Below the pieces are notes generated by a model. It worked only from the letters and a program-made list of their open reading frames with translations. It was not told the origin of the DNA and made no database searches. The position numbers and the translations under genes were made by a program. Source: Desulfonauticus sp. (GTDB lineage: Bacteria; Desulfobacterota; Desulfovibrionia; Desulfovibrionales; Desulfonatronovibrionaceae). From it: a stretch of DNA of 48,561 bases. The stretch covers positions 1 through 48,561 of the forward strand of contig JAUZRP010000054.1 in NCBI GenBank assembly GCA_030950395.1, in the 5' to 3' direction. How positions within the stretch are numbered: position 1 is the first letter of the stretch; every line of letters starts with the position of its first letter. Of the stretch, positions 1,137-27,037 are shown in pieces.

Positions 1137-1137
1137 T

Positions 1138-2001: not shown

Positions 2002-2019
2002 TTTTTACCTCCATTTGGG

Positions 2020-2739: not shown

Positions 2740-3839
2740 CTCAAATCAATCTCCAGTTTGTTAAAGTTGATGTAAGCATCTTTAAGGTCATATATTTCAA
2801 TTTCAGGAATTCCTTGAGACAGGCTGTAAAAGCCAAAGACTTTTAAGTCTTGTTCTTTTACTTTGGCCTTCCAGAGCAGTTTTTGGAGAAACTCAAGGTT
2901 GTGCGTGACAATGAAAATTTGATGTCTGGACGTAACTATTTCTTCTACAAGTGAATTTAGCATGTTGGGATGCATGTAGTTTTCTGGCTCTTCAAAAAAC
3001 AAGTAAGAAGTCTGACGCAGGTTTAAAATCAGGTAGTGAAGCGTAAAATACCTTAGTCCATCTCCAAGCATGGAAAAAGGAATCCTGTGAGAATTGATGT
3101 TCACGTAAAGGTCGCTAAAGGAAGGCTCTATGGACTTTATTTCGGTTTCAAAATATCCTGAAAAAATTTTCTTTAACTTGTTGTAAACGTTTTCGTTTAG
3201 CTCAGGTTCGAGTTTTTTTATGATTTCGCTAATGTTGTTAGAACACTCACAAAGCAAACAGGTATCAAGGAGAAATTTTAGAGAATTAGAATGTTGATGG
3301 TTGGTATTTAAATAAACAATCCGAAATTGTTTTTTCCTTTCACTTTCAAGGAGTAAAAGAACCGGTGTCTTGTTTTCATCTAGACTAGCTAGAACGTAAT
3401 ATTTTTCTCTAAGGTTCAATTTTTTCAGATACCTTTTGGTTGATAGACTTATTCTGGGATTTTTCTGAATAAGATCGTCAATCTTAAGGAGTTCCTCGTA
3501 TTCTTTGAACTCAAAATTGTGAAGATGCGAAGCCTGACTAGTCCCAATTCTGATATGCGCACAGGACTCATTTTTATAAAAGAAATGGGATTTAAGATAG
3601 GAAATAACCTCCTCTGGAGAGCCGTTATAAAACCGTTGGGATAGTCCCCTTCTTCTCATAATATTCCATATGGGTGAAATATGAATGAGGTCTGCTCCTA
3701 AGGCAACAAGATAAAGGGCTTCAAGAAGTGCACTTTTGCCAAGGTTATTTTTGCCTATGAATACATTTAGCCGTGAAAACCCAGCTATTTTCAGTTCCTT
3801 AAAACTTCTGAATTTTTCAAGTCTGACTTCTTTTATCAT
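2736..3839 (-). CDS. ABC/OLD-type AAA ATPase embedded in the cmr operon
   Basis: This 367-aa SMC/ABC-like ATPase is of the AAA_15/AAA_21 kind. Visible motifs are Walker A GKNNLGKS (residues 29-36), an ABC-signature-like SMLGDGLRYF (256-265), Walker B YLFFEEPE with two acidic residues (279-286) and the switch His313 in IVTHN. The N-terminal MIKEVRLEKFRSF strand is typical of OLD, RecF and AriA ATPases. The ~200-residue insertion between Walker A and the signature is not recognised. It lies between cmr3 and the TOPRIM gene with 4-base overlaps on both sides, on the operon strand. The pairing with a TOPRIM partner suggests an ATP-dependent sensor/clamp controlling a nuclease. ATPase identity is secure; its defence role is inferred. 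Confidence 0.85.
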   Translation of the reverse strand: MIKEVRLEKFRSFKELKIAGFSRLNVFIGKNNLGKSALLEALYLVALGADLIHISPIWNIMRRRGLSQRFYNGSPEEVISYLKSHFFYKNESCAHIRIGTSQASHLHNFEFKEYEELLKIDDLIQKNPRISLSTKRYLKKLNLREKYYVLASLDENKTPVLLLLESERKKQFRIVYLNTNHQHSNSLKFLLDTCLLCECSNNISEIIKKLEPELNENVYNKLKKIFSGYFETEIKSIEPSFSDLYVNINSHRIPFSMLGDGLRYFTLHYLILNLRQTSYLFFEEPENYMHPNMLNSLVEEIVTSRHQIFIVTHNLEFLQKLLWKAKVKEQDLKVFGFYSLSQGIPEIEIYDLKDAYINFNKLEIDLR

Positions 3840-4906
3840 TGTTTTTTTACCACTAATAAAGCCTCAGGTTCGTTAAGTTGGGGGTGAAATTTTGACAATT
3901 TTGGTTTTCCATGGTTTACGGAAAGGCTCAAATTTTTAATCACTTCAGTGGTATTTTCATTATTAAATTTAATTTTGTAAACTTCTGGATTTGGTTCGTT
4001 TATGGGTTTAACCAATAGCACTGAACCTGGTTTTAGGGCTTTTACCAGTGGTTTAGCCCGATTTTCTTTGTAGTCCCAACCGCTTATGGCGTCCAACTTG
4101 TTGACACACCAATTTTTGATTTCATATTGGCCATCTCTATCTTTTTTGATTGGAATGAGGGTCAATGCCACTAATCCGTCAAAACGCGCTGAACTCTTAG
4201 AAACTGTGGTGCTTTCGATCATTTCCCATATGGCTATGTGGCCTTCTCCACCAAGCCTTGTGGTGAACTTTTCTGGCAACACATTATCTTCCATTTCCAC
4301 TCCCACCAGAAAACCCACACCCTTTTTAAGCCTTGCTACACTCATGCGGTAAAATTTACTTCGTTCGCTGGTTTTAGTGTCTTTCGTAAGAGTCAAGCCG
4401 ACTCGGTTCTCTATTTGATAAAGCTCTGAAGCAGGGATTATTTCTTCAGAAGATGGCCTTAAACCTCGGGTATATTGCAAAAAACCTTTTAGGGAAAGAT
4501 AAGAAGTTTCTTTTTTAGAAATTTGCTTTTCTTTTTTTATGGGAACCAGAGTGTTTTCTCTTATTTCGTTTTCAAAAACAAATTTTTCTACAGAAAGTCT
4601 TTTCCAGGAGCTAAAAGCATCGCATGGCATAGGGAGAATGGGATTTTCGTCTTTAAAAAAAGAAAACCAAAAAATGGAAATATTTTCTAATTCACCTGCA
4701 ACGCCTTCTCTAAACAACTGAGAAATAGATTTTTTTTCTTTAGAAGATTTTATTTCCAGATATTTTGTCCTGAGAGCTCCAAGAAAAGGGCTTATTCCTG
4801 GTGGAAAATTGAGCCTTGCCAGAGATTGCTCTCCTGCCAGAAACGGCCTTGTATCCCTGAAAAAAAGAACAGACAAAGGAGTAACTTTATAAAACATTAA
4901 GTTCAT
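3836..4906 (-). CDS. cmr3: Cmr3, type III-B Cas5-like subunit
   Basis: Cmr3 is the Cas5-group RAMP that binds the 5' repeat-derived tag of the crRNA and contacts Cas10 at the base of the Cmr complex. The 356-aa product shows the classic N-terminus, VTPLSVLFFRDTRPFLAGE, followed by FPPGISPFLGALRTKYLE, and the RLGGEGHIAIWE glycine-rich motif near residue ~215. The Cmr3 of the other operon has the equivalent DTLFFRDSKPF and KLGGEGKGALY segments. The start overlaps the Cas10 stop and its stop overlaps the ATPase start, both by 4 bases. It is the point after which the operon departs from the usual cmr gene order. Confidence 0.95.
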   Translation of the reverse strand: MNLMFYKVTPLSVLFFRDTRPFLAGEQSLARLNFPPGISPFLGALRTKYLEIKSSKEKKSISQLFREGVAGELENISIFWFSFFKDENPILPMPCDAFSSWKRLSVEKFVFENEIRENTLVPIKKEKQISKKETSYLSLKGFLQYTRGLRPSSEEIIPASELYQIENRVGLTLTKDTKTSERSKFYRMSVARLKKGVGFLVGVEMEDNVLPEKFTTRLGGEGHIAIWEMIESTTVSKSSARFDGLVALTLIPIKKDRDGQYEIKNWCVNKLDAISGWDYKENRAKPLVKALKPGSVLLVKPINEPNPEVYKIKFNNENTTEVIKNLSLSVNHGKPKLSKFHPQLNEPEALLVVKKQ

Positions 4907-7900
4907 TTTCTTTCCTCCTCTCTTGCGAGGAAGCCTGTAATTAATAATGCTTCTAAAAATGCAGAAGGCTTTAGAAAATACGTATTATCTCTTTTTATCT
5001 CTGAAATAAGGCTGCAAAGAAGGTTTTTGTGAGATTTACCTGTGCCGCGGCTTCCAAATTTGATAAATTCAGCCTCAAAAACTTCTGGCATTTGGTCATA
5101 AATGTGTTTTTCTCCGTAAAGCTGATGAACAAACCTTTCAGAAAGTCCTTCTTTAATGGCTTTTTTGAAAGTTTTCATAGAAGATACAAATTTCCAGGGC
5201 ACCACAGCCTCTTTTTCGCTGCCTGAATGAACCAATACCTTAAAGCCGACTCTATTTTTACCTTCGTAAGATTTTGTTTTTTTAAGCATTTCTTGAGCTT
5301 TTAAAAGGGTGATGTCCAGAGGATCTAAATAATGGGCAATGGCCACTCCTGCAGAAAGCGTGGCTTTTGTTCCCATAACACGGATGATTTCTTTTAAAGA
5401 ATTATTTTCGTAAATTTTGATAAATCCTTTTTCACTTATGAATTTTCTGTGACCAGTTTCTACGACATAATTTTCGCCTGAATAAAGTTTACGCAGTGCA
5501 GTAAGGGTATCCAGGAGATTTTCTAGTGGAATGAGAAAAAGGGTGTCGTCTCCACCAGAATAGACGAGAACGCCAAGGTTGTGTTCTACCACATAGGGCA
5601 CGACTTCAAGGGCAAAGTCTCTTAAAGCGCCCGAAATGGCACGGTGAATGGCAGGGGTAACCGGGCGTTTTAAGTCTTTGATATCTTCAAAAAGAGGGTC
5701 ACTTGCTATTTCCCTAACAAAGTCAGGATGGAAAACCTGCTCTATCTTTGGAGCCTTATCTCCCCTTAGCCACTTTCCAAGGTCGTCGCCATCAAGGTAA
5801 ACTGCAGCGTAATATTTGGGCAGGGAATAATCGTCTCCGAGTTTTTCTTTTGCTTCTTTTTTTATTTGAAGGACAGCTTTTTCTATTTCCCTTGACCACT
5901 CATCTTTTATACTCTTGTCCTCGTCTTTGTCACTTTCTGCTTTGAGTTCTTCATAAAATCTTGGGAAGGCTTCATCATAAAACCATTCAGGTTCAAAATC
6001 ACCGTCAAATCTTTCACCTGCAATGTTTTGAGGGATAATTCGGTCTTTAATCTCAGGGACAGTTCGTCCCTCTGTGAAATGTGCGTCAAGAAAGTTTTTA
6101 ACTTCTTTGTTTTGCTTGAGCAAAATCTCAATTGCTTTTTCAATTGGCGATAGGTCAACTTCGGAATCCATCAGTTTTTTGATAAACGGCGCCAGAGCAA
6201 TAGAGGCTGTTGAGGGGAAGTGGAAATCAAATTTGAATTCAGGAGAGTTTGAACAAATTTTTAGGAAAAACTTTTCAGGGTTGTTCCAGATTACCTTTGG
6301 TGCAAGCCTTTTAACAAGGCATACCGCACAAAGGTATTCGTTTTCCTTGATGTGTCCGAGAAAGGTATTGGACATCTCTTTCCATAAGTCCTTGAGGCGT
6401 TTGTAATAGAGTTTGTTCCGTTTCTTTTTGAAATCTTGTTCTTTTTTTAAGTTTTCGTTGTATTCAAACTTCTCAATAAGGCTGTTAACATAGGCCTCAT
6501 CAGTTTCCAGTTTTTCAAGGTCAATATCCACGAGCGCGCTTCTTTCACCACAAAGAGAGCACTTTTCCCATGGTTCTTCTGCAAATTTTACTTTCCCCCG
6601 GTATTTCATAGCTTTAAGGCCAGTTTGAGCCATTTCAACCAGAAGTGAATACGTATCCCCGATGTTTGGATTAATATTCCTTTCTTTCATCTTTCCCCAG
6701 AGTCTTCCAAACTCCCAGCAGGTGCCAGGCTCCATGAGATTTTTGTAATCTTCTATTGCCTTTTCTGGATCATCACCCCATTTGAGGCCTAGCCAGTAGA
6801 TGTCAAATGGCAGTTTCTGAGTTTGCTGATCGAACTGTTGATACAGGAAGTTATCTTTAATCAATCCGTTTTGTGGAAGTAAATCTCTTACATTTTTGAC
6901 AAGTTCTTTCCATGCATTTTCAAAGTTTTGAACCACTTTTTTAGCGTAATTTTCTTCATCTCCGTCCTTTACAATGGCCAGAAAAGTATTGGGCAGGGTT
7001 GGAAGTCTCAATTTCCCTTCATCAAAATTAAGGTCTGCGATTCCAACCTCGTCTCTTAGCCACTGGTCAACAAAGGGTTGTTTGTAGAGGTCAGGATAGA
7101 CGATATTGTCGGGTCCGAGTTTATCGGCAATGGGTTTCATGGCCTGCCAGGAAAGATAGGATATGAGCCAGGAACCAAACCAGAGGTCTCTTGTTTTTTG
7201 GGCATTGGCAATAAACTTTTGCACTGGTCCAAATTCTAGAATGAGGAAGGAGGGGTGAGGATTTGCATTTTCATCAACAGTTGTAGAAATTGCTGATTGA
7301 ATTGTTTCAAGATCATAAAGAGAGTTATCAGGTAATATAGGTTCAGGAGGTGTTAAAAGCGAAAGAAGAGGTGGATTGCGCCAAATAAGAAGAAAAATTT
7401 TTTGTGGATCATTCTCATCGTGAATTAGACTTTTAAAGTAATCTACAATCTCATCTCTAAGTCTTTCCCTCTCTTGTTCATTTAATTGAGATTTATATGT
7501 GCTGTCTGTTAGACTTTCGAAAACCCATTGGGCATTTTCATCAAGTGGATGAATTGTTATTAAAGTCAATTCCTTGCTGGACTTAAATCCAAAGTCATTA
7601 ACTCTTAAATTCGAAGCCGCAATTTGATGAAATTTCCTATTATAAAAAGTTTTTAATATGCTTTGAAAGCGGCTCAATATTCTTCCGCTAGTTTCTATAT
7701 TAATACTTCTCAATTCAGATTTATTTAGTCGCTTATATTTGTTGGTTTGCGTTAAGTAGTTAATAAAATTATGCCAATTATTTTGCAAACATTGCTTAAC
7801 TGGTTGAAGGGATGGATCAGAAATAGTAGAAAGATTGAAATAGAAAGGTGGTTGAGTTGTTCCAGTAATCCAAGTCCAATATCTTAGGCAATCATAATCT

Positions 7901-7983
7901 CTCGTTCCAAAAAAATATCCTTTATCCGGCGGGTCGTGCAAAAACGCGGCTATCTTTTTAAGCCAGAGGTCATTGTCAGGCAT
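4903..7983 (-). CDS. cmr2: Cmr2/Cas10 with HD and GGDD domains
   Basis: Cas10 is the large signature subunit of type III systems. This 1026-aa protein has an N-terminal HD-type region (FLHDPPDK, His16-Asp17), linked in the family to ssDNA cleavage. It also has the GPVQKFI...KTRDLW start of the first palm-like domain near residue ~255, two CxxC zinc-binding pairs (CSLC ~475; CAVC ~550), a YLDGDDLGKW motif and the GGDD cyclase motif at residues 810-813. All parts needed for target-activated cyclic oligoadenylate synthesis are present. Unusually, its own operon has no CARF gene; the only visible candidate receptor is encoded in the other Cmr operon. It overlaps cmr1 by 8 and cmr3 by 4 bases. Confidence 0.96.
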   Translation of the reverse strand: MPDNDLWLKKIAAFLHDPPDKGYFFGTRDYDCLRYWTWITGTTQPPFYFNLSTISDPSLQPVKQCLQNNWHNFINYLTQTNKYKRLNKSELRSINIETSGRILSRFQSILKTFYNRKFHQIAASNLRVNDFGFKSSKELTLITIHPLDENAQWVFESLTDSTYKSQLNEQERERLRDEIVDYFKSLIHDENDPQKIFLLIWRNPPLLSLLTPPEPILPDNSLYDLETIQSAISTTVDENANPHPSFLILEFGPVQKFIANAQKTRDLWFGSWLISYLSWQAMKPIADKLGPDNIVYPDLYKQPFVDQWLRDEVGIADLNFDEGKLRLPTLPNTFLAIVKDGDEENYAKKVVQNFENAWKELVKNVRDLLPQNGLIKDNFLYQQFDQQTQKLPFDIYWLGLKWGDDPEKAIEDYKNLMEPGTCWEFGRLWGKMKERNINPNIGDTYSLLVEMAQTGLKAMKYRGKVKFAEEPWEKCSLCGERSALVDIDLEKLETDEAYVNSLIEKFEYNENLKKEQDFKKKRNKLYYKRLKDLWKEMSNTFLGHIKENEYLCAVCLVKRLAPKVIWNNPEKFFLKICSNSPEFKFDFHFPSTASIALAPFIKKLMDSEVDLSPIEKAIEILLKQNKEVKNFLDAHFTEGRTVPEIKDRIIPQNIAGERFDGDFEPEWFYDEAFPRFYEELKAESDKDEDKSIKDEWSREIEKAVLQIKKEAKEKLGDDYSLPKYYAAVYLDGDDLGKWLRGDKAPKIEQVFHPDFVREIASDPLFEDIKDLKRPVTPAIHRAISGALRDFALEVVPYVVEHNLGVLVYSGGDDTLFLIPLENLLDTLTALRKLYSGENYVVETGHRKFISEKGFIKIYENNSLKEIIRVMGTKATLSAGVAIAHYLDPLDITLLKAQEMLKKTKSYEGKNRVGFKVLVHSGSEKEAVVPWKFVSSMKTFKKAIKEGLSERFVHQLYGEKHIYDQMPEVFEAEFIKFGSRGTGKSHKNLLCSLISEIKRDNTYFLKPSAFLEALLITGFLAREEERK

Positions 7984-9202
7984 TTGGATACCTCCTGGTT
8001 AAGCCTAAATAATTCTGCAAAAATTTTTCTATTCTTTGAAAATCATTTTCATTAGGTTTCCTAAGTTTTAAAGATGGCTGTTGGTCAGCTATATAGTTCG
8101 CCTTCTCAGGTAGGAATTTAGATTTGAATAAAGTTGCCCTTATTAATCCTATGTCAGGCTCTACATGTAGGATAAGAGGAGAAGCTCGTCGATTTATTTC
8201 TTTTTCTTTAACATTTATGATTGCTGTTTTTCTTTTTTTTCCATATTGCTTAGAAAATTGAATTGGCAGGCCAAAAACATCATTTCGAGGATTATCACTT
8301 TTAACGTCTCGTTTCTCAAAAATTGGCTGAATTATATCTAAAAAGTCTCGAGTGTGGCCGTATCGTCCAAAATTGTCTCCATCATGCTTTCTAAATTCTC
8401 GGTAAGTTTTTCCAATGTAAGACAGTAAGGAGTCCCATTTCTTTTCGTCTGGCCTTTGTCCTTCCCAGATTTGATAATAAGGGATAGCAAATAAAGGAAA
8501 ATCAGGAAGGTTATTAAATTCTTTTTCTGGTGCAATTTTTAAGGATTCAGCCATGGTTTTGATTTTTTCAATGACTTCTTCAATAGGAGAAAAATCAAAT
8601 TTATTAGGAGAGTTACCATTTATTTCAACTATCTCACAACTTCCAAAACCATGTCTCCATCGGGTGCCAAATCCGCCAAGATGGATAGCAATCTTTAATA
8701 CACTAACTATTATATTGAGGGCCAAAGTATTTGTCCCTGAAAGTTCAATCAAAAATTCAAAGTTAGGTAGAAAAGCCCCTCTATCCCAGTAGAATCCTGG
8801 TGGATTTTTGCTGTTTTCCCTTTCCAAATCTCTCTTACTGTAATATTTCACCAGTCCCATATTTGCTAAATAGACCAAAAACTGGTGCTTTTTGGGAATA
8901 GGTTGGAGGTTTCCTTCCTTTAATGCATCCTGTCTCTCTAAGATCATTTTTTTGCATTTTTCCTCATTTAAAACATTTTTCACCCTCACCACAACCCTAC
9001 TCTTCCTCTCCGTATTGCCGAAAATTTCGGATTCCAGTTTGTAAACTTCTTGTGGATCACTTGTAACCGCTCCTGCCATGGCGCGGAACCAGAATCGCAT
9101 AGCTCCTCGTATGGAGGCTGCTCTAAGTTCTGGCTCTTTCTGAGGCTCAGCACCGCCCATGAACATGGGCGTTAATACTCTTAGCTTAAAGGTGGTCTTC
9201 AT
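7976..9202 (-). CDS. cmr1: Cmr1, type III-B RAMP subunit
   Basis: Cmr1 is the Cas7-like RAMP at the tip of the Cmr complex. The 408-aa product shows LTPMFMGGAEPQKEPELRA, then SIRGAMRFWFRAMAG, the GFGTRWRHGFGS glycine/arginine loop near residue ~185, and RRASPLILHV in the second half. The C-terminus ends normally (LTRRYPNA) with no extra domain, unlike the Cmr1 of the other operon. It is the first gene of the left Cmr operon, with a GGAG ribosome-binding site and a plausible sigma-70 promoter at 9246-9274. The truncated cmr6 is the last gene, ~9.1 kb downstream. Confidence 0.95.
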   Translation of the reverse strand: MKTTFKLRVLTPMFMGGAEPQKEPELRAASIRGAMRFWFRAMAGAVTSDPQEVYKLESEIFGNTERKSRVVVRVKNVLNEEKCKKMILERQDALKEGNLQPIPKKHQFLVYLANMGLVKYYSKRDLERENSKNPPGFYWDRGAFLPNFEFLIELSGTNTLALNIIVSVLKIAIHLGGFGTRWRHGFGSCEIVEINGNSPNKFDFSPIEEVIEKIKTMAESLKIAPEKEFNNLPDFPLFAIPYYQIWEGQRPDEKKWDSLLSYIGKTYREFRKHDGDNFGRYGHTRDFLDIIQPIFEKRDVKSDNPRNDVFGLPIQFSKQYGKKRKTAIINVKEKEINRRASPLILHVEPDIGLIRATLFKSKFLPEKANYIADQQPSLKLRKPNENDFQRIEKFLQNYLGLTRRYPNA

Positions 9203-9274: not shown

Positions 9275-9599
9275 TTTATATTTTGTAATGACACTAAAAT
9301 ACAAAAATACACTTGGCTGGGAACGAATTGTTTTGTTATTTAGTAGGGATGAATAAAGATGATTAAAAGCAGGTATTGGAGAGATAAATGTATGGCATGT
9401 AATAATGATTTGTAAAATGTCTCAGAAGTCAAAATTTACTTCTAACCTAACTAAAAACAGTTCACTGCTCACTGTTCACCAACTTTGGTTTCCATTCCTC
9501 ATAGGTAGGCTTCCGTGAACTGTGAATGGTGAACAGTGATTTTGGTAAGAGCTAAGAGCTTTTTTTTGAGATAAAATCCAAATAGGAGGCAAAAACAAA

Positions 9600-9701
9600 A
9601 TGAAGACGTTGATTACAAAGTTCTTTTTATTTTTAATTAGAGATAAAAAAGACAGGATTGTCGTCAATTTGAATGTCTTAAAAGTTAAAATTTACTTCTA
9701 A
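9600..9701 (+). CDS. 33-aa ORF in 263-bp unit, copy 1
   Basis: The ORF starts with ATG 10 bases after AGGAGG and begins MKTLITKFFLFLIRDKK, a hydrophobic stretch followed by a basic tail ending in VKIYF. It recurs in all three complete units. No family is recognised, and expression is unproven. It runs opposite to crRNA transcription. Confidence 0.25.
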   Translation: MKTLITKFFLFLIRDKKDRIVVNLNVLKVKIYF

Positions 9702-9994
9702 CCTAACTAAAAACAGTTCACGGTTCACTGCTCACTGTTCACCAAGAGTGAGTTTCCATTCCTCATAGGTAGGCTCAAAACAATGAATGAAGGAAAACTG
9801 TATTTTAATAAAAATCTGTTTCCATTCCTCATAGGTAGGCTCAAAACGGAATGAACTCTCCTAAGTAATCACCTGTTGATGAAGTTTCCATTCCTCATAG
9901 GTAGGCTTTAATGTCCGTGAACTGTGAATGGTGAACAGTGATTTTGGCAAGAGCTTTTTTTTGAGATAAAATCCAAATAGGAGGTAAAAACAAA

Positions 9995-10096
9995 ATGAAG
10001 ACGTTGATTACAAAGTTCTTTTTATTTTTAATTAGAGATAAAAAAGACAGGATTGTCGTCAATTTGAATGTCTCAAAAGTTAAAATTTACTTCTAA
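9995..10096 (+). CDS. 33-aa ORF in 263-bp unit, copy 2
   Basis: This is the second copy of the small hydrophobic-basic ORF. It keeps the AGGAGG ribosome-binding site and differs from copy 1 by a Leu-to-Ser change near residue 27. Conservation may simply reflect recent duplication. Confidence 0.25.
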   Translation: MKTLITKFFLFLIRDKKDRIVVNLNVSKVKIYF

Positions 10097-10257
10097 CCTG
10101 ACTAAAAACAGTTCACGGTTCACTGCTCACTGTTCACTAAGAGTGGGTTTCCATTCCTCATAGGTAGGCTTTAATGTCCGTGAACTGTGAATGGTGAACA
10201 GTGATTTTGGCAAGAGCTTTTTTTTGAGATAAAATTCAAATAGGAGGCAAAAACAAA

Positions 10258-10359
10258 ATGAAGACGTTGATTACAAAGTTCTTTTTATTTTTAAATAGAG
10301 ATAAAAAAGACAGGATTGTCGTCAATTTGAATGTCTCAAAAGTTAAAATTTACTTCTAA
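10258..10359 (+). CDS. 33-aa ORF in 263-bp unit, copy 3
   Basis: This is the third copy of the small ORF, with AGGAGG upstream and an Ile-to-Asn change at residue 13. The frame is intact, as in the other copies. Confidence 0.25.
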   Translation: MKTLITKFFLFLNRDKKDRIVVNLNVSKVKIYF

Positions 10360-12614
10360 CCTAACTAAAAACAGTTCACGGTTCACTGCTCACTGTTCAC
10401 CAAGAGTGGGTTTCCATTCCTCATAGGTAGGCTCAAAACGAAAAGAAGACAACGCCGTTATTTTCCCCACCACTAGTTTCCATTCCTCATAGGTAGGCTC
10501 AAAACCAAAGCTGCAGTTATTCATGATTGGCTTTACCATAGTTTCCATTCCTCATAGGTAGGCTCAAAACCAGGATTGGTTTTGTTTCTGGAAGCTGGAA
10601 TTTCAGTTTCCATTCCTCATAGGTAGGCTCAAAACTTATGCTGGTTTAATTATTGCCGCATTGGTCGGGAGTTTCCATTCCTCATAGGTAGGCTCAAAAC
10701 CTGCTTCTCCTTTTCTTGGAGATGCTGTATGTTGTACGTGGTTTCCATTCCTCATAGGTAGGCTCAAAACAAGCTTAGAAACCCATCAATTAGGATAGTA
10801 ATACCGTTTCCATTCCTCATAGGTAGGCTCAAAACTTGTTAGCTATATCAGGAGAACAGATAAAAGAAAGATGTTTCCATTCCTCATAGGTAGGCTCAAA
10901 ACCGTCTATACAGATACTTCTGTCAGAGAAGTATCTTGTTTCCATTCCTCATAGGTAGGCTCAAAACTAAGATAGGTTTAAGAAGACAAACAGTGTTTTT
11001 AACGTTTCCATTCCTCATAGGTAGGCTCAAAACGGTATATTTACTAGGTGGATATAATGGATCATCTACGTTTCCATTCCTCATAGGTAGGCTCAAAACA
11101 GTTGCAAGAGAAGCATTCACACTTCCAGTTGCTTGTTTCCATTCCTCATAGGTAGGCTCAAAACTAAACAATCTGCACCAGAAGCAGTAATTAATACATG
11201 TTTCCATTCCTCATAGGTAGGCTCAAAACTGGAATAGGATTACAACCTTCTTTTATGAATAAATGTTTCCATTCCTCATAGGTAGGCTCAAAACGGATAG
11301 TCCTTTTTAGATAAGAAAATAAAAGAAAGGGGGGTTTCCATTCCTCATAGGTAGGCTCAAAACTCATATGCATCTTTACCTTTGACAATATAATCTTGAG
11401 TTTCCATTCCTCATAGGTAGGCTCAAAACAACCACATTGAACCACATCTCAGAAATATAAATTTGGTTTCCATTCCTCATAGGTAGGCTCAAAACCAAAA
11501 TGACAAGCAAAAAAATAAAAAAAGAAGTTTGTTTCCATTCCTCATAGGTAGGCTCAAAACTGGGACGGCTTAGTGCAGTTTCCCCAATAGTCCTCAGTTT
11601 CCATTCCTCATAGGTAGGCTCAAAACAGAAGAATATATAAGAACAGAAGAAGCTTTTTATTGGTTTCCATTCCTCATAGGTAGGCTCAAAACAACAGATT
11701 TGTTAAATTCCAATGTAGCAGAAGAGAAGTTTCCATTCCTCATAGGTAGGCTCAAAACTTTGAACCCTTTCTTTTCTAAATACCGAGTCAAATATAGTTT
11801 CCATTCCTCATAGGTAGGCTCAAAACCCATAGGAGGTATAGTTAGTTATTTCTTCTTTGATAGTTTCCATTCCTCATAGGTAGGCTCAAAACTTTCACTA
11901 GACCTTGATCGTGTTTTCACTAGACCTGTTTCCATTCCTCATAGGTAGGCTCAAAACGCTAGCTCCCTAACAGCTTCCGTAATTCCCACCCGGTTTCCAT
12001 TCCTCATAGGTAGGCTCAAAACGTTGCACAATGTGTTTACACCATTGCTGGAAAGGTTGTGTTTCCATTCCTCATAGGTAGGCTCAAAACACGGCTCTTT
12101 TTCTAACGCCTTTTTCATCTCATCGGTTTCCATTCCTCATAGGTAGGCTCAAAACTTTTTTATTCATAAAAGTTCTCAAAGAACTTTTCATGTTTCCATT
12201 CCTCATAGGTAGGCTCAAAACTATATACCTTGTGGAAATTCAAGCATCTGTAGTAGGTGTTTCCATTCCTCATAGGTAGGCTCAAAACACCAACAAAAAA
12301 AGTTATATAGATAACATTATTTTGTTTCCATTCCTCATAGGTAGGCTCAAAACGTCTTTATTTAACGACGAAGAGTCTGTCAAAAGCAGTTTCCATTCCT
12401 CATAGGTAGGCTCAAAACTATTGTAAAGTTAAATGTAATAGTTGTCTTTACTAGTTTCCATTCCTCATAGGTAGGCTCAAATCGTGTATTTACAAATAAA
12501 AAACATAATAAAAAACTAGTTTCCATTCCTCATAGGTAGGCTCAAAACCTTGCGGACCTGAAAATTCCCTGAAAGCTTTGATATGTTTCCATTCCTCATA
12601 GGTAGGCTCAAAAC

Positions 12615-12899
12615 CAACCATAATCCTTTATGGTTTTATGTTTTTGGGGTTATTCAAATTCAAAGAACTATCATCTTTTTAAGCCATAATTTACTGGTAT
12701 GTCAAATAAAATAAAAAGGTTAAATTTTTTTTGGGTGGCGTCTATCCCCAGGGGATTTTACATTACTTCCCATGGACGACATTATCCTTGCTATAGGTTG
12801 ATACTTATTCAAACTGGAGAAGGGTAGGAATTTCCAAGATTTCATAATTAAAGCCTAAATTGAACGATTTTGGGTGATTAAAATTTCTTTAGCCTGGAG
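12615..12899 (-). promoter_or_regulatory. CRISPR leader
   Basis: This AT-rich, gene-free stretch lies between cas2 and the first repeat, at the GTTTTGAG side of the array, where a leader is expected. It holds a candidate promoter (12677-12705), an 8-bp inverted repeat touching the first repeat (12616-12623 with 12628-12635, loop TCCT) and a 13-base palindromic core ATCCCC-A-GGGGAT (12744-12756). New spacers would be added at its junction with 12614. Confidence 0.8.
12677..12705 (-). promoter_or_regulatory. Candidate array promoter in the leader
   Basis: On the minus strand a perfect TTGACA is followed after 17 bases by TTAAAA, a weak -10. Transcription would begin roughly 50-60 bases before the first repeat, a usual arrangement for CRISPR leaders. 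Confidence 0.5.
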
Positions 12900-13163
12900 T
12901 TATAGTATGTTTTCCACAATATTTTTCTCTATTCCCAACACGTCTCTTTTAAAATAAGTTTTTGTCCTTAACTGGTAAAAAATTATGGAGTCCTTTTCTA
13001 AATCTATTGTACTCTTTAATTCTGACTTTAATCTTTCAAATTGGGCTTTGGTGAGTTCTCCTTCAAGCACGGAATTTTGCACCCAATTTAAATATTTTCT
13101 ACTTATTTTTAAAACCTTATTTACTCGCTCTACTTCAATATCATAGACCATAATAACGTACAT
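12900..13163 (-). CDS. cas2: Cas2, spacer-integration subunit
   Basis: Cas2 forms the core dimer of the Cas1-Cas2 integrase that inserts new spacers. The N-terminus MYVIMVYDIEVERVNKV carries the conserved first-strand aspartate (VYDI), followed by the YLNWVQNSVLEGELT segment typical of the family. I chose the ATG at 13163, giving 87 aa and the canonical N-terminus, with AAGGTGGTGAG upstream; GTG codons three codons earlier are an alternative overlapping the cas1 stop. It is the last cas gene before the leader. Confidence 0.93.
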   Translation of the reverse strand: MYVIMVYDIEVERVNKVLKISRKYLNWVQNSVLEGELTKAQFERLKSELKSTIDLEKDSIIFYQLRTKTYFKRDVLGIEKNIVENIL

Positions 13164-13165
13164 TC

Positions 13166-14161
13166 TCACCACCTTGCCACAAATGGTTTGTATTCTTCAT
13201 CTTCTAAAATATGTTTTTCTAATTTATACAATTCAAGCCTTATAAGCCTCTTATAAGATACATTTCTCCCCAGTCCTCTATGTTTTATGGTTGTTTGAAG
13301 TCTTTTTTCCCATTCTTGTAAAAAAATCTTTTGCCCATTTTCTTTTAAAAAAATTCCTCCAAGTTCATTTTTAAAATGAGATTTTTTTATAATTTTTTTA
13401 TTTAAGATAGTAAATATTAACCTATCTACGAGAATTGGCTTAAAAATTTCTGCAACATCCAAATTTAAGGTAAATCTTCGCATATTGGTTGAATGTAAAT
13501 ATCCTATTCTAGGATCTAAGTGGGTACGATAAATTTCAGACAATACCAGAACATATAAAAGACTGTTTCCAAAACTAATAAGAGCATTTAATCTATTGGC
13601 AGGAGGCCTTCTGCTCCTTTGTTCAAAACTAAAATCACTGTTGTTTATTATTTTGTCAAAAGCTGTGTAATACACATCTCTTACATTTCCTTCCACAGCC
13701 ATAATTTCTTCTACACTGTTTCTTTTATTTAATGAGAGAAAGAGATTGTTTATTTCTTTTTCAACCACATCAAGATCAACTCCTCTATTTTTATAATAGG
13801 CAATTACTTTCAGTATATTTTTAACTGCTCCTTCAACAAATTTTTTGGCAAGCACTAATCTTTTTTTATTGTCCAAATAGTTTTCAGCCTGTTTTAAAAT
13901 TATAAGCCCAGAATTATAGTGCTCTCTTGGATAATATGTCCCAACATAGTATTCGTGATAATTGAAAAAATGAAGTAGGATTTCTTTTTGAGTTAGATAT
14001 TCCAGCAATTTTTTATTTATTGAGACTTCTCCAAAAATAAATATTTCTGAAACAGCCTCTATGGGCAGATATTTTTTATCTCCATCTTCTGTTTCAAAAT
14101 AAAGAGTATTTTGTTTTCTCTTTATTTCTCCACCTGAAAATATATAAATGGATTTTTTCAC
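13166..14161 (-). CDS. cas1: Cas1, type I-B spacer integrase
   Basis: Cas1 is the metal-dependent integrase of CRISPR adaptation. The 331-aa product has a normal length and the expected residues: Glu157 in AVEGNVR, His223 in GYLHST, and Asp235/Glu238 in NLDVAEIFKP. The QRSRRPPANRLNALISFGNSLLY stretch before them is typical of the I-B-type Cas1 family. It lies 12 bases after the right-operon cmr6 stop and overlaps or abuts cas2. The matching cas4 is ~8.2 kb upstream, on the other side of the Cmr operon, which suggests that the cmr block interrupted a cas4-cas1-cas2 cluster. Confidence 0.96.
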   Translation of the reverse strand: MKKSIYIFSGGEIKRKQNTLYFETEDGDKKYLPIEAVSEIFIFGEVSINKKLLEYLTQKEILLHFFNYHEYYVGTYYPREHYNSGLIILKQAENYLDNKKRLVLAKKFVEGAVKNILKVIAYYKNRGVDLDVVEKEINNLFLSLNKRNSVEEIMAVEGNVRDVYYTAFDKIINNSDFSFEQRSRRPPANRLNALISFGNSLLYVLVLSEIYRTHLDPRIGYLHSTNMRRFTLNLDVAEIFKPILVDRLIFTILNKKIIKKSHFKNELGGIFLKENGQKIFLQEWEKRLQTTIKHRGLGRNVSYKRLIRLELYKLEKHILEDEEYKPFVARW

Positions 14162-14173
14162 TTTTGTTAATCC

Positions 14174-15334
14174 CTAATTTTTTACTTTAAAAATTCCATA
14201 TCCAAGAGATGTTTTTGCACCTATACCATATTCATATAAGGCATATTTTAAGTTATCATAAATAACATCAAAAATATTTTTCCCTAAAAAAACTCCTCTA
14301 TCAATTATAATATTATTTTTTTCTTTTATACCAAGTAAGAATTTAAACTTAGTATCTTTAACTGTTAAAAAAAATATTGGATTTGGATTTTGATAATCAG
14401 CAGGAGGTTTATTATCTGTATAATAATCTGGATAATGTACGTTAATTATATCAATATCTATTTGAGGTTTTTCAACGGGAAATGCATCAAAAAAAATAAC
14501 TTTTCCTATCTTTGCTTTGTTGTAAAAACTATCCTTAGGACAACCAAAAATATCACAAAAACCTTTATCAAAAAAGGCATCTTTTTCCATTCCATTAAAT
14601 AAATTTATAATAATGTAATTGCGCACCATACCTTTTATACTACTTGCAGGAATATAGGGTATACCATAAAGATGATGCAGAGTTAATGATGTTTCATATA
14701 CTGATTCATTGCCAAGTCCAACTATCAATCTACTTTCTGGTTGTAATATAATATTTTTTAAATTATAATTTTGTTCTTTTAAACTTTTAAATAAACAATT
14801 TTGATTGTTTTTGATTTTATCAATAATATCTTGAACAGTGTTAAAATTAAATTCAATTTCAAATTTGCTTATTATTTTTTCTCTTTTGTTTTTAGATTCT
14901 CTTTTATACAATAAGATTTCCTCTTTGTCTTTTTGTTTATTAAAACGAAAATTAATGCATTTGTTTAGTTTTAAATAAAAGTTATCAATTAAATTTTCGT
15001 GTTGCCGCAAATTGTTTTTTGTATCTAATGGCAGTTTTGTATTGTTAATTGAGAACATATTTTTAATTTTATAATTATTATATCTATCATGTTTTGCAGG
15101 ATCTGTTTTATGTTTCTTAAAACTATTCTTTTTTAATAGTTCTTTACCATCAACCAAGATTTTTTTTATTTGTCCTTTATCCATTTCTAAATTGCATTTT
15201 TTACCATCTAAAGATAGATCATTAAAAGAATAAAAAGAAGGAACAGGCATTTCTTTATCATTTAATTTTACTATACCGTAAAATTTTCCTTTTCTATTTT
15301 TCTTTATAAACAATATCCCTTCTACTTTTTTCAT
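14174..15334 (-). CDS. cmr6: Cmr6, type III-B RAMP subunit, long form
   Basis: This is the intact Cmr6 (386 aa) of the right Cmr operon. Residues ~205-245 contain VGLGNESVYETSLTLHHLYG and IPASSIKGMVRNY. GKVIFFDAFPVEKP follows, and the end is the glycine-rich YEYGIGAKTSLGYGIFKVKN. The first ~110 residues, lysine-rich and partly like an S1/OB-type RNA-binding lead (GILFIKKNRKGKFYGIVKLNDKEMPV), are extra compared with the truncated left copy. Its C-terminus shows what the left copy has lost. The gene is very AT-rich, like the rest of this operon, overlaps cmr5 by 4 bases and precedes cas1 by 12. Confidence 0.92.
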   Translation of the reverse strand: MKKVEGILFIKKNRKGKFYGIVKLNDKEMPVPSFYSFNDLSLDGKKCNLEMDKGQIKKILVDGKELLKKNSFKKHKTDPAKHDRYNNYKIKNMFSINNTKLPLDTKNNLRQHENLIDNFYLKLNKCINFRFNKQKDKEEILLYKRESKNKREKIISKFEIEFNFNTVQDIIDKIKNNQNCLFKSLKEQNYNLKNIILQPESRLIVGLGNESVYETSLTLHHLYGIPYIPASSIKGMVRNYIIINLFNGMEKDAFFDKGFCDIFGCPKDSFYNKAKIGKVIFFDAFPVEKPQIDIDIINVHYPDYYTDNKPPADYQNPNPIFFLTVKDTKFKFLLGIKEKNNIIIDRGVFLGKNIFDVIYDNLKYALYEYGIGAKTSLGYGIFKVKN

Positions 15335-15741
15335 TCCTCTTCTCCTTCAATTAATCCTTCTGCAAATCTTTTTAACCAGCTTAAAAATGCTAATACCTCT
15401 ATTGTTAAAGAACGGTATTCTGAGGAATTAAGTTCTACTGTTCTTTTAACTAAATCTGAAAAAGAGTCTAAGTTATCACTATCTGTCAAAATTTTTTTAT
15501 CATCTTGTTTAAGCCAATCTAAAATTTGCTTTCCTATAATTTCATATGTACCACCTTTAGAAAGCATAAAGGCAAATGTTGCCCCAAGACCATTAGTTTT
15601 AATAAGCATTAAAATCTTTTTTACATAAGATTTGTATTCTTTTTTCTTTTCATACTCACTGCCCTTTTCTGCACATCTATATGCAAACTCAGCCCTTCCC
15701 TGTTCAAGTTTTTTTAAATTAGATGAAATATTATTGGACAT
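15331..15741 (-). CDS. cmr5: Cmr5, type III-B small subunit
   Basis: This is the helical small subunit of the right Cmr complex, 136 aa from the ATG at 15741. I chose that start because GGGAGGA lies just upstream and the N-terminus MSNNISSNLKKLEQGRAEFAY then matches the family; an upstream in-frame start would extend further into cmr4. LGATFAFMLSKGG in the middle and a final LAFLSWLKRFAEGL helix parallel the left Cmr5. It overlaps cmr4 by 11 bases and cmr6 by 4. Confidence 0.9.
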   Translation of the reverse strand: MSNNISSNLKKLEQGRAEFAYRCAEKGSEYEKKKEYKSYVKKILMLIKTNGLGATFAFMLSKGGTYEIIGKQILDWLKQDDKKILTDSDNLDSFSDLVKRTVELNSSEYRSLTIEVLAFLSWLKRFAEGLIEGEEE

Positions 15742-16678
15742 CACTATCCTCCCATAATTTAATTTCAACGATTCCTTTTCCAATTGTAGCATTACCGCCT
15801 ATTTGAATGATATTAGGTATTCCTTTTTCAAAAAATTCCATTACTAAATATTCTTCTTCCTTGTTGTTTGTGTTAAAAATTCCTTTATCTTCATTAAAAA
15901 TAGGGGTTGTTAATGCAAGGGAGTATAAAATTGTCTCACACGGCAAATATTCTTCTGTGAAAAGTTGTCCATGTTGTACTGTTCCTGTTTCAGGGTCAAT
16001 CTTAATTCTTGTAATAACCTCTGTTGATAGATTAACAAAATCTCTAAAATCATTGTCTGATAACACAACAAGTCTATCTTCTATCTCTTTATTATTTGTT
16101 ATTTGGCTTAACCATTTGGAAAATTTTTTTGTATCTTCATTTTCTTCTACCTTAAAACTATATTCTTCAAGAATAACATTTTGGTTTATTGCCAATTTAT
16201 TTTTATTAGATATTGTATTTTTCAAAGAAATTATATTATTGGTTGGAAAATCAGATTTTATTCCGTTTGTCTTTTTGCATATTTTAACATCTTGTTTGAA
16301 TCGTTCTAATACTAAAGGACAAGTGATATATGCAAACACGCCTTTCATGGATTTTACTGGAAAAAGAAGTATTCTTGCATCAGTAAAACCTAATGCCCCT
16401 GCATGGGCATCTCCTTCCTCTGGTCCAAAACTAAGAGAAATAGCTTTGTTATAATTATTCCTGTTTTTTAAATCAGGAAAAGACTCAATTAATTTTTTAC
16501 TGGTAAAAGACTCAAAAACCTCTCTTATACTCCCCTTTAATCCAGAACCTTCTATTTTAGGGAAATCAGTATGCCTTTCCCTTTGAATTGGAAGATCAAT
16601 AACTCCAAGATCTGTACCACTTCCTGCATGAAGTGGAGTTATTACTTTTATAAAAAATGGCTTTGCAAACTTATACAT
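15731..16678 (-). CDS. cmr4: Cmr4, type III-B backbone RAMP and target-RNA nuclease
   Basis: This is the backbone subunit of the right Cmr complex, 315 aa from the ATG at 16678. VITPLHAGSGTDLGVIDLPI carries Asp28 at the catalytic position, and ERHTDFPKIEGSGLKGSIRE and QIGGNATIGKGIVEI follow as in the left Cmr4. I prefer the second of two nearby ATGs because AAGGAGG is only ~3 bases before the first and ~9 before the second. It overlaps the CARF gene slightly, so the CARF effector is co-translated within the core operon. Confidence 0.94.
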   Translation of the reverse strand: MYKFAKPFFIKVITPLHAGSGTDLGVIDLPIQRERHTDFPKIEGSGLKGSIREVFESFTSKKLIESFPDLKNRNNYNKAISLSFGPEEGDAHAGALGFTDARILLFPVKSMKGVFAYITCPLVLERFKQDVKICKKTNGIKSDFPTNNIISLKNTISNKNKLAINQNVILEEYSFKVEENEDTKKFSKWLSQITNNKEIEDRLVVLSDNDFRDFVNLSTEVITRIKIDPETGTVQHGQLFTEEYLPCETILYSLALTTPIFNEDKGIFNTNNKEEEYLVMEFFEKGIPNIIQIGGNATIGKGIVEIKLWEDSDVQ

Positions 16679-17795
16679 ACTCATTAACCTCCTTGTTTTC
16701 TATTTCTATAATTCTTTTTTTTGACTCATTTTTTATCTTTTCTTTATCAATTAATAAAACTTTTCTTATAAAATCATCAGATTTTTTGTGATTAGTAAAT
16801 ACGTTATATATGTATAATTTGTTATCTGATTCAAAATAAAATATTCTATTTTGATTATCTCCATCATCAAAAACTATATGAATGTTTTTTTGTTCTGTCT
16901 TAGACTCTCTAAGTATTTTAAAACAGAATTTAGTCTTTAATATTCGCAATATTTCTTTTTTGTTATTTATATCTTTCCATACTTTATCTGATGCATAAAA
17001 TATAAAAAATTTATTTTCATATTTATATAAAAAAATCTTCCCCAATGGACTCAACAAAGCAATATCTCCATCTGTATCAATAAATCCATTTATATCTTCT
17101 AATTTTGAATAATTAATACTTTGCCATTGTTGATAATTATCTATACCATTATCAAGCTCTTTAAGTAAGTTAAAATTTTCTTCAATAATTTTAAAATCAA
17201 CTTGTATAGGGGTTTTAGGTATTTTTATTAAAGAATCTGTGTCTTCAAATATATAGTATATATCGCATCCATTGATCTGTGCCATTATAGTTATATAGGG
17301 AATGATTGCTTTATATCCTCCAGTAATGTTAAAAATAACGTTTTCATAATAATTGCTACAAATATTTTCTACTTCAATAATTAGATTGATAAGTCCATTT
17401 TTAAATTTTTTATCATCCTCCACTTGAAGATCCTTAATCAGTACGATCTTTTTTATATTGATATTATTTATTTCTGTAAAATATTCTTCTATTATTTCTG
17501 CAGCAATATTTGAAAGTATAGTATCAGAGGTCAAAAGGTGAATATCTAAAAAAGAATTACTAAATTTTTTATTCAATTTTAAAATGCTTTTTATTTCTGC
17601 ACATATATTTTCTTTATTGTTATGTCCATTGATCCAGTTTCGTATCTGATCTTTTAAGTCTTTAATATCATCTTTGTATTCATTATATCTATAATATGAT
17701 TTTTGTTCTAAATCTTGTATAAGTTCATCTGTTCCATTATCTTTTTGATAATTAAAAAATATTGATGTTCCAACTGTAGTTATTATTTTTTTCAT
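16671..17795 (-). CDS. CARF-domain effector with RelE-like C-terminus (Cami1-like)
   Basis: The N-terminal half (residues 1 to ~220) is a CARF domain of the APE2256/TIGR02619 type. TTVGTSIFFN at residues 6-15, the LLTSDTILSNIAAEII segment and FNITGGYKAIIPYITI followed by YYIFE are characteristic. CARF domains bind the cyclic oligoadenylates made by activated Cas10. The C-terminal ~140 residues contain NRIFYFESDNKLYIYNVFTN followed by a basic helix, which resembles the RelE/HigB mRNA-interferase fold. A CARF-RelE fusion (Cami1) is known to cut ribosome-bound mRNA, so a translation-blocking effector is likely. CARF is confident; RelE is by pattern only, and another effector domain is possible. 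The gene sits between cmr3 and cmr4 on the operon strand. Confidence 0.75.
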   Translation of the reverse strand: MKKIITTVGTSIFFNYQKDNGTDELIQDLEQKSYYRYNEYKDDIKDLKDQIRNWINGHNNKENICAEIKSILKLNKKFSNSFLDIHLLTSDTILSNIAAEIIEEYFTEINNINIKKIVLIKDLQVEDDKKFKNGLINLIIEVENICSNYYENVIFNITGGYKAIIPYITIMAQINGCDIYYIFEDTDSLIKIPKTPIQVDFKIIEENFNLLKELDNGIDNYQQWQSINYSKLEDINGFIDTDGDIALLSPLGKIFLYKYENKFFIFYASDKVWKDINNKKEILRILKTKFCFKILRESKTEQKNIHIVFDDGDNQNRIFYFESDNKLYIYNVFTNHKKSDDFIRKVLLIDKEKIKNESKKRIIEIENKEVNEYV

Positions 17796-17797
17796 AA

Positions 17798-18877
17798 TTA
17801 ATTCTCCATATTATTTAATTTACCTACAAAAGTAATTCCAAAACCTTGTTTGTTATTTATATCTGAAATTGATTTACAGTGAAAATTATCTTTAATTTCA
17901 TTAAAAGTTCCTTTTAATAGTTTAAAATAATAAACACTTCCATGGGGTACGGCTTTAAACATGGGCTTTGGTCGTCTGTTTTTTATATCAAACCCACTAA
18001 TATAAATTGGTTTTCCCATTACAACACTTAGTAATTTAAGTTTTAAACTATTAATATTTCCAATCAAAGTTTCTTCATCTATCCATGCAGGAATCCATCC
18101 TTTTTTAAAAATAGCAGGAGTAGTTAATACTAACTTAAAATATGTTTCATTATTATTAAAATTAGGGAAATCTATATTCGGTACAACATCTTTATTAACA
18201 CTATACAGTGCTCCTTTACCTTCTCCACCTAGTTTTAGTAATCCTGTATTAGGTAAGTTTAATCCTTCAAAATCCACTACAATTGAAAAATTCTCTTTGA
18301 ATCTCTTCATATCAACTCTATACAGTTTACTTTCATCACTAGAAAGGGTTTTGCGAGAACGAGTTATACCAATTTTGGGTTCTGACTCTATGACATCTGA
18401 TAATTTTTTTACAACAAAAGGATCTAGTAAATGAGAATTCAAGTATTTTTTTAAATTTGATTGTCTAATTAATCCATTTAAAATATTTTCTATTTTTTTA
18501 TCATTGTCCAATCCAACTATATAATCTAATGGAATATCTGAAAAAAAATATTCTTTTTTTAGTAATTTTAGTGTAGTATGTATTTTCTTTTCATTACTAT
18601 CTTTATATTTTATACAATCTAATGGTAAAGGAAAGTAAATAGAATTTCCTATTTTAAAACAAATAGATTTTATATTTAAGTTTATTGTGGGATCATAAGC
18701 AGTATTAGCTTTTTTTATTTCACCTGAATTATTTGCAAAATAAACACTTCTTAAAGCACCGTAAATTACAGAAGGGTAGGGTAGAGACATGCTATCTGAC
18801 CATGTTTCTTCACCCATATAAAAAGGTTTGCTATCTCGAAAAAAAAGAGTATCCATTGGAGTTATTTCTATTACCAT
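17798..18877 (-). CDS. cmr3: Cmr3, type III-B Cas5-like subunit
   Basis: This is the Cas5-group subunit of the right Cmr complex, 359 aa. ITPMDTLFFRDSKPFYMGEE at the N-terminus and SLPYPSVIYGALRSVYF after it are diagnostic. KLGGEGKGALYSV (near residue ~215) is the glycine-rich motif, and RPKPMFKAVPHGSVYYF near the C-terminus corresponds to AKPLVKALKPGSVLLV in the left copy. It starts 1 base after the Cas10 stop. Divergence from the left Cmr3 is high, so the two operons are not recent duplicates. Confidence 0.94.
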   Translation of the reverse strand: MVIEITPMDTLFFRDSKPFYMGEETWSDSMSLPYPSVIYGALRSVYFANNSGEIKKANTAYDPTINLNIKSICFKIGNSIYFPLPLDCIKYKDSNEKKIHTTLKLLKKEYFFSDIPLDYIVGLDNDKKIENILNGLIRQSNLKKYLNSHLLDPFVVKKLSDVIESEPKIGITRSRKTLSSDESKLYRVDMKRFKENFSIVVDFEGLNLPNTGLLKLGGEGKGALYSVNKDVVPNIDFPNFNNNETYFKLVLTTPAIFKKGWIPAWIDEETLIGNINSLKLKLLSVVMGKPIYISGFDIKNRRPKPMFKAVPHGSVYYFKLLKGTFNEIKDNFHCKSISDINNKQGFGITFVGKLNNMEN

Positions 18878-18878
18878 T

Positions 18879-20615
18879 TTATTTCCCCTTTCTTGTTATA
18901 AAGTCAGAGATATGTAGAAAAGATAAAAAATTATTTTTTTCTTTATAATTGTATAGATTGGATAGTTTTGTTTGCCAATACTGAACTTTTTTGGCTTTTT
19001 TATCTTTATCTTTAATTTTTGAAGATCTATTGAGTAAACGTTTTAATTCAGGAAGTAACATGGTTTTTGAAAATTTAGCAAGCCTTTCACATTCTTTTGA
19101 TAGGACATTAATAAATGTATTTGAAAAACCATTTTGTTCAGCATTTAATTCAGTTATTAATTCATGCATAATATCTAAAACAAAATCTTCATTAACATAC
19201 CACTTATAAACTGTTTTATGTATTTCTCCTGAACGTTTTAAAACTGCAATTGCAAAGGCATCTCTTTTTCCTCTTTCTTTTGCCTCTTCTTCCATTCTTT
19301 TTGTCCACTTTAAAACTTCTGATAAGGGTGTTTTATAATGTGTTATTGCAATGCCAGCTGAGACAGAAGATTTATGTTTTAATTGAAACCCTGAATTTTC
19401 AAATTTTGGAAATTTTTTTCTCAATTCTTTTAGAATTTTAAATAAATAGTTTAAATTGACAAAGGCCATTATATCATCACCACCAGCATAGACAAGGCGA
19501 CCTTTATGTTTAGTAATAATTGAATTTACACTTTGAGTATATTCTCCTAAAAGTTCACTTAATTTTTTATGAAAATCTAACAGGTTATCTTTATTTTCTA
19601 AATACTCTCCAGAAAGCCACCTTCCCATATTATCTCCATCTAACATAATAATAGCATAATACTTTTTAGGCTCTCCATATTTTTTGTATAAATCGTTCAA
19701 TAACTTTTTACAATTAGCTAATTCTTTTTCATTTTTAAGGTAATTGTATTTTTTTAGATATTTTTCAGTTAGGTTTTCCTTAAAAAACAATTCTTCATCA
19801 AAATTTTTAAAAAAATTTTTATATGTTTCTAATTTATCTTTAGGTATATCCTCAATCCAGTTTAATAATGCAATTTCTGCTGTTGAAGGAAAAGAATAAT
19901 CAAAAAAGAATCTTTTTATGAAACATATTCCACACAATCCTTCTCCTGATTGCATGCCTATATCATCTTTTTTATAAAAAATTACATCTTCTTTTTTTAA
20001 GTATAGTTTTTTTAATAAACCATCTTTTCTTTTTTTTATCCCATTTTTTACTTCTTCATCTGTTAATTTATAAATTATTATATTTCGTTGTCCACATACA
20101 GAACATTTCCTTCCAATTTCACCATTTCCATTGTTTATTTGAGAGAAGATCTTTATATTTTTTATACTTCCCATATACTTCTCAATGTTATTATAAACAG
20201 AATAATATTTATTTTGAATGAAAGGTAACGCTAACCAATAAATTTGAAGATAATCTTTGATTTGATCTAATAAAAGAGTTTTTATCTTTTCATTATTTTC
20301 ACAAATTTTATTTAATGTATCATTACCAATTACAAACAGTTCTTTTTGTATAAATTTTTTTAATTCTTTTCCTATTTTATCTATATTACCATCAATTTTT
20401 ATTTTTGCAATAAAACGGTTTGGTTTTGTATTGATTTTTTTGTGAGGGAAAATAAACTCTACACTATTTTTATTTTCTAATTCTTTCATTGCTTTATCTA
20501 TTAAGATAGATAATAATGAACTTCCAGCATATAAATCTTGTGTTTTACGTGATTGTGATATAAAAGATTGTACTGGACCAATTGTAAAAAGAAACAAATA
20601 TTCTTTACTGTTCAT
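18879..20615 (-). CDS. cmr2: Cmr2/Cas10 lacking the HD domain, GGDD intact
   Basis: This 578-aa Cas10 starts directly at the palm-like region (LFTIGPVQSFISQSRKTQDL, residue ~10), which in the left Cas10 lies near residue ~255. The N-terminal HD nuclease region is absent, with no sign of it upstream because the HEPN gene ends 9 bases away. It keeps two zinc-binding pairs (CSVCGQ, CGICF), MLDGDNMGRWLSGE and GGDD at residues 378-381, so cyclic oligoadenylate synthesis is expected while ssDNA cleavage is not. This fits the CARF effector gene two genes downstream: signalling appears to be its main output. Confidence 0.94.
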   Translation of the reverse strand: MNSKEYLFLFTIGPVQSFISQSRKTQDLYAGSSLLSILIDKAMKELENKNSVEFIFPHKKINTKPNRFIAKIKIDGNIDKIGKELKKFIQKELFVIGNDTLNKICENNEKIKTLLLDQIKDYLQIYWLALPFIQNKYYSVYNNIEKYMGSIKNIKIFSQINNGNGEIGRKCSVCGQRNIIIYKLTDEEVKNGIKKRKDGLLKKLYLKKEDVIFYKKDDIGMQSGEGLCGICFIKRFFFDYSFPSTAEIALLNWIEDIPKDKLETYKNFFKNFDEELFFKENLTEKYLKKYNYLKNEKELANCKKLLNDLYKKYGEPKKYYAIIMLDGDNMGRWLSGEYLENKDNLLDFHKKLSELLGEYTQSVNSIITKHKGRLVYAGGDDIMAFVNLNYLFKILKELRKKFPKFENSGFQLKHKSSVSAGIAITHYKTPLSEVLKWTKRMEEEAKERGKRDAFAIAVLKRSGEIHKTVYKWYVNEDFVLDIMHELITELNAEQNGFSNTFINVLSKECERLAKFSKTMLLPELKRLLNRSSKIKDKDKKAKKVQYWQTKLSNLYNYKEKNNFLSFLHISDFITRKGK

Positions 20616-20624
20616 ACATTACTC

Positions 20625-22354: not shown

Positions 22355-22382
22355 CTTTTATCCCTCTTGTTGTTTCTATTTT

Positions 22383-25237: not shown

Positions 25238-25242
25238 CTAAT

Positions 25243-26013: not shown

Positions 26014-26020
26014 GGTCTAA

Positions 26021-27022: not shown

Positions 27023-27037
27023 AACCTAACCTCCCCA

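Follow-up and report, generated by a model that had tools for sequence, protein, structure and literature searches.

In the oldest slots of a CRISPR array of Desulfonauticus sp., we identified a cassette of approximately 230-240 bp that does not resemble a spacer, follows a repeat deprived of its last six bases, and is present in three full copies and one partial copy, with a fifth copy in the oldest slot of a second array of the same genome. This cassette is a putative, unusual passenger of the CRISPR arrays. On balance, with moderate confidence, we favor a scenario under which it was captured once at the distal end of an array and was then multiplied and shared between the two arrays by repeat-mediated recombination.

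The window, that is, the whole stretch of 48,561 nucleotides that was analyzed, shows the following organization around the array:

95-9202, minus strand: type III-B Cmr operon with an internal AAA ATPase, adjoining the leader-distal end of the array
9488-12614, minus strand (crRNA strand): CRISPR array of 39 repeats (36 full-length and 3 truncated), oriented by the position of cas2 and the leader and by related loci
12615-12785, minus strand: leader, homologous to that of the second array (83% identity, 164 aligned columns)
12900-28990, minus strand: cas2, cas1, a second type III-B set with a CARF-RelE protein, and cas4-like, cas3, cas5, cas7b and cas8b genes (type I-B); the cas4- and cas5-like genes were called only from reading the translations and from position
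12900-13172, minus strand: cas2, beyond the right end of the array
13166-14161, minus strand: cas1, beyond the right end of the array

The array repeat is GTTTCCATTCCTCATAGGTAGGCTCAAAAC (RF01315), and the ordinary spacers are 35-40 nt long. Because the minus-strand repeat ends in ATGGAAAC, the 5' handle, and the same arrangement is seen near related cas1 genes, the leader can be placed at 12615 and the left end of the array is the oldest.

Several additional features of this locus and genome were recorded. Within the left III-B operon, between its Cmr genes, the minus-strand segment 2020-3839 encodes an AAA ATPase (AAA_15; the best PADLOC match is AbiLi) and a 239-aa protein that has no confident family assignment and shows a sub-threshold match to an OLD-like TOPRIM domain. 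The spacer at 11893-11927 contains a 13-mer present twice (TTTCACTAGACCT...TTTCACTAGACCT), and a 21-bp tandem repeat (CTGTTCAAAACGTTTGTCTAC, n=3) is located at 33663-33724. The 2.2 Mb draft genome encompasses four separate cas1 genes (contigs C1, C24, C46 and C123).

The copies at the leader-distal end are arranged as follows:

9416-9487, plus strand: u0, the 3' part of a unit (72 nt; 91% identity over 64 nt)
9488-9511, plus strand: R', a CRISPR repeat without its final six bases, preceding u1
9512-9751, plus strand: u1, a full unit without TTAATG and with a 7-bp duplication
9752-9883, plus strand: two ordinary repeat-spacer units with 36-nt spacers, between u1 and the next R'
9884-9907, plus strand: R' preceding u2
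9908-10146, plus strand: u2, a full unit (TTAATG followed by 233 nt)
10147-10170, plus strand: R' preceding u3
10171-10409, plus strand: u3, a full unit with 98% identity to u2

This layout agrees with an earlier sequence-only reading of the locus, which had described three near-identical units and a partial one, bounded by inverted GTGAAC/GTTCAC arms, located at the leader-distal end and each preceded by a repeat lacking exactly its last six bases. The three truncated repeats (at 9488, 9884 and 10147) indeed retain 24 of the 30 bases (GTTTCCATTCCTCATAGGTAGGCT) and lack CAAAAC, which is replaced by TTAATG in u2 and u3, with nothing in its place in u1. The 263-bp size given for the unit in the same reading is exact as a period for u2 and u3 but not for u1, where the step is 264 bp and the 7-bp duplication is found. 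The full units are 240 nt (u1), 239 nt (u2) and 239 nt (u3) long and show pairwise identities of 97.9-98.3% over aligned columns. The full copies all point in one direction, with the truncated repeat always on the same side; a complete repeat follows u1 and u3 on the 3' side, whereas u0 runs into the truncated repeat of u1 and u2 into that of u3, such that u2 and u3 form a tandem with R' between them. With 233-240 nt following a truncated repeat, as opposed to 35-40 nt for the other spacers, the units are not spacer-like, and ordinary spacer acquisition was correctly dismissed by the sequence-only reading.

The partial copy, u0, deviates from the others. Its left edge was probably cut by a deletion, and its terminal bases before the repeat (9464-9487) are CAACTTTG compared to CAAGAGTG in the other copies (CTTTG versus AGAGTG). 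Both u0 and the copy in the second array contain CAGAAGTC and lack the same heptad. At the left edge of u0 (9416), the sequence is joined at the microhomology ATTTG..AATGTCTC.

When the whole draft genome was searched for further copies, only one was identified beyond the array of the window, on contig C108. Its setting is again a CRISPR array, where it occupies the oldest slot, follows a truncated repeat and points the same way as the copies of the first array. The unit is not confined to one array, and in this respect the sequence-only reading was incomplete. The two repeats that flank the cassette on C108 have the form characteristic of the first array (GGTAGG), whereas the other six contain GTTAGG. 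Between the two arrays, the cassette differs in 8 of the 227 aligned positions (96% identity) and the leaders in 28 of 164 (83% identity; Fisher p ~1e-5 for the comparison of cassette with leader divergence). This lower divergence of the cassette suggests either that crossover in the repeats on its two sides exchanged or homogenized it after the split of the leaders, or that it is under stronger constraint than the leader. New CRISPR repeats are templated on the leader-end repeat, so the GGTAGG form seen distally in the C108 array may simply be the ancestral one. In the locus that contains the second array (L007), an ORF to the left of the array (4850-5194) enters the terminal repeat and stops there; no relative of this truncated ORF was detected in 60 genomes, and therefore no empty site could be read. 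Just past the leader of this array and close to the contig end, the C-terminal part of a Cmr6/RAMP-like protein is encoded (L007, 6104-6409).

Under the scenario that we favor, approximately 233 bp of DNA, consisting of inverted heptad arms around a mini-gene-like interior, would have been captured and would have settled in the oldest spacer slot, apparently removing six bases of the adjacent repeat. With a truncated repeat on one side and a full repeat on the other, the cassette would then be treated by homologous recombination as an overlong repeat-spacer unit, leading to duplication within the first array, to at least four copies, and to passage between, or inheritance by, both arrays of the genome. 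The cassette was probably carried without strong selection because spacers at the distal end contribute little. We infer this order of events from the uniform orientation of the copies and the constant side of the truncated repeat, the location of the other copy in the oldest slot of the second array, the tandem of 98% identical u2 and u3, the lower divergence of the cassette compared to the leaders, the GGTAGG flanks on C108, the presence of inverted heptads around other interiors (see below) and the neutral-like variation of the ORF. Multiplication through recombination between repeats, as suggested in the sequence-only reading, is thus supported, with the mechanism itself deduced from the arrangement of the copies. 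Against this scenario, we found no donor site; the right end of u0 (CTTTG versus AGAGTG) could point to a second insertion and, together with TTAATG in u2 and u3, may leave room for more than one; and the high identity between the arrays could reflect constraint on a functional unit.

The features by which some copies deviate, namely the right end of u0 and TTAATG to the left of u2 and u3, would also fit a MITE or another mobile element that inserted specifically into CRISPR repeats several independent times, as would the inverted arms and the identical junction in the two arrays. The arms consist of inverted GTGAACN heptads with a perfect 13-mer pair (TGGTGAACAGTGA/TCACTGTTCACCA) at the core, and in folding calculations both strands outperformed nearly all shuffled sequences (z-scores of -2.8 and -3.8). 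These arms, however, appear to be degenerate heptads common to unrelated loci rather than defined termini, and their correspondence to the terminal inverted repeats of a MITE is ambiguous. They are scattered throughout the genome, with GTGAACNGTGAAC found at 30 sites, and inverted heptad pairs enclose other interiors on contigs C39, C73 and C74. None of the copies shows a target-site duplication; the left flank is the truncated repeat (..AGGCT) or ..TTAATG, and the right flank is AAGAGTGA/G or AACTTTG. All five copies reside in CRISPR arrays, none at unrelated sites, and no transposase-related sequence was recognized. The sequence-only reading had classified the unit as MITE-like and had proposed a search for stand-alone copies and target-site duplications; given that neither was found, that the interior has no copy outside CRISPR in this genome and that a mini-gene-like ORF lies inside, we do not file the cassette as a MITE, and we consider repeated insertion of a mobile element unlikely.

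The cassette interior has no copy outside CRISPR arrays in the whole draft genome and no relative in several hundred genomes; in 199 related genomes, matches were confined to the heptad arms, and both a class-level search and a comparison with plasmids and phages returned only short pieces at chance level. The CRISPR repeat is missing from 17 other genomes of the genus, family and order, a search with an exact 33-mer gave no match in a genome-contig collection, and the exact repeat gave none in viral contigs. In the arrays located beside related cas1 genes, most of which are interrupted by contig ends, no comparable unit was observed.

The interior of the cassette resembles a small gene in its organization. 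On the plus strand, it includes, in this order, TTGGCA-17-TAAAAT, AGGAGG, ATG and 33 codons:

9944-9972, plus strand: predicted sigma-70-like promoter of u2 (TTGGCA-17-TAAAAT), with its counterpart in u3 at 10207-10235
9995-10096, plus strand: mini-ORF of u2, preceded by AGGAGG and encoding 33 aa (MKTLITKFFLFLIRDKKDRIVVNLNVSKVKIYF), antisense to the crRNA strand

The mini-ORF is also open in u1 (9600), u3 (10258) and the C108 copy, that is, in all four full copies. In dinucleotide shuffles, a Shine-Dalgarno hexamer followed by a closed ORF of at least 30 aa arises at a frequency of 0.085% and a promoter of equal quality at 4.8%; given this rarity, the interior probably represents a gene start, either real or captured. 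The promoter taken alone is weak evidence, with 13 promoter-like sites in the region compared to 11.7 expected. Across the copies, four nonsynonymous and three synonymous variable sites were detected in the ORF, a pattern indistinguishable from neutral (p 0.13); seven random changes would break the ORF with a probability of only 0.47, so its intactness is weak evidence. The peptide has no match in Pfam or PADLOC and no homolog in the 199 related genomes, the tblastn matches being weak and unconvincing.

These features bring up the possibility that the cassette is a functional mini-gene module maintained at the distal ends of the arrays and encoding a toxin, either a small peptide or an RNA, with an mRNA that would be antisense to the pre-crRNA and would be repressed by pairing or by crRNA-guided Cmr cleavage, such that loss of CRISPR transcription would be punished. 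The correct order of promoter, AGGAGG and ORF and its rarity in shuffles, the ORF open in four of four full copies, the identical location in both arrays, and the better conservation of the cassette than of the leaders between them are all compatible with such a module. Nevertheless, the lack of homologs of the peptide in Pfam, PADLOC and the 199 related genomes, nonsynonymous changes not significantly rarer than chance, the limited weight of ORF intactness, and the promoter spacing, which is widened and thus broken by the 7-bp duplication in u1, make it unlikely. A more specific version, namely a CRISPR-embedded addiction gene, with a small toxin transcribed in the direction opposite to the array, silenced by the pre-crRNA or by Cmr with a crRNA whose spacer is the 3' end of the cassette, and spread from array to array via the repeats, appears quite improbable.

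An assembly artefact, in which the copy number was collapsed or multiplied in the draft genome, is conceivable with 172 contigs and copies in tandem, but very improbable considering that exact identity between copies extends over at most 97 nt (89 nt for copies of the first array), that SNPs and indels distinguish the copies, and that an independent contig carries one of them. With exact shared stretches of at most 97 nt, ordinary short reads could be expected to separate the copies. A system of the CreTA kind, with a toxin repressed by Cascade under a guide RNA from degenerate repeats, is also very improbable: the genome does encode type I-B components (cas8b, cas7b and cas3), and truncated repeats adjoin a mini-ORF that contains AGA/AGG codons and follows a strong ribosome-binding site, but guides starting at the repeats beside the units fail to match the promoter region over seed positions 1-5 and 7-11, the array spacers match the cassette no better than shuffled guides (two guides compared to 1.3 expected), and the putative toxin would be encoded antisense to its guide rather than upstream of it in one operon.

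If the favored scenario is correct, a CRISPR array can become home to a cassette that is not a spacer, and such a cassette can be copied via the repeats within, and perhaps between, arrays; this would represent a route for exchange of array content without Cas1-Cas2. Should the mini-ORF be expressed, it would be a gene residing inside a CRISPR array, antisense to that array.

Repeat-spacer blocks are gained or lost through recombination between CRISPR repeats, and the cassette is similarly a repeat-bounded block that changes copy number; it differs in not being a spacer and in its presence in a second array as well. In the literature, we found nothing closer than MITEs in CRISPR loci and CreTA. 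MITEs have been seen in CRISPR loci, but rarely; the MITEs and IS elements reviewed for archaeal CRISPR loci comprise an ISH4 element and a 132-bp MITE, one of each, in euryarchaeal loci (PMC4390879). Like these, the cassette is a non-spacer element with inverted arms within an array, but it lacks a target duplication and free copies, fills a whole spacer slot, comes with the loss of six repeat bases, has been multiplied and is found in two arrays. Locus F of Sulfolobus solfataricus contains an 899-bp plasmid-like fragment between two repeats (PMC4390879), also a long foreign segment occupying a spacer slot; that case, however, was described as one fragment, compared to five copies, two arrays and a mini-ORF here. 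With CreTA, which is defined by a guide seed matching the toxin promoter (PMC8501985), the cassette shares a mini-ORF, a promoter and a strong Shine-Dalgarno sequence, all predicted, beside altered repeats in a genome with type I-B genes. The defining seed match (positions 1-5 and 7-11) is missing, which makes assignment to CreTA very improbable; furthermore, the ORF is antisense to the guide strand, the repeats are truncated rather than degenerate, and the cassette is located inside the array.
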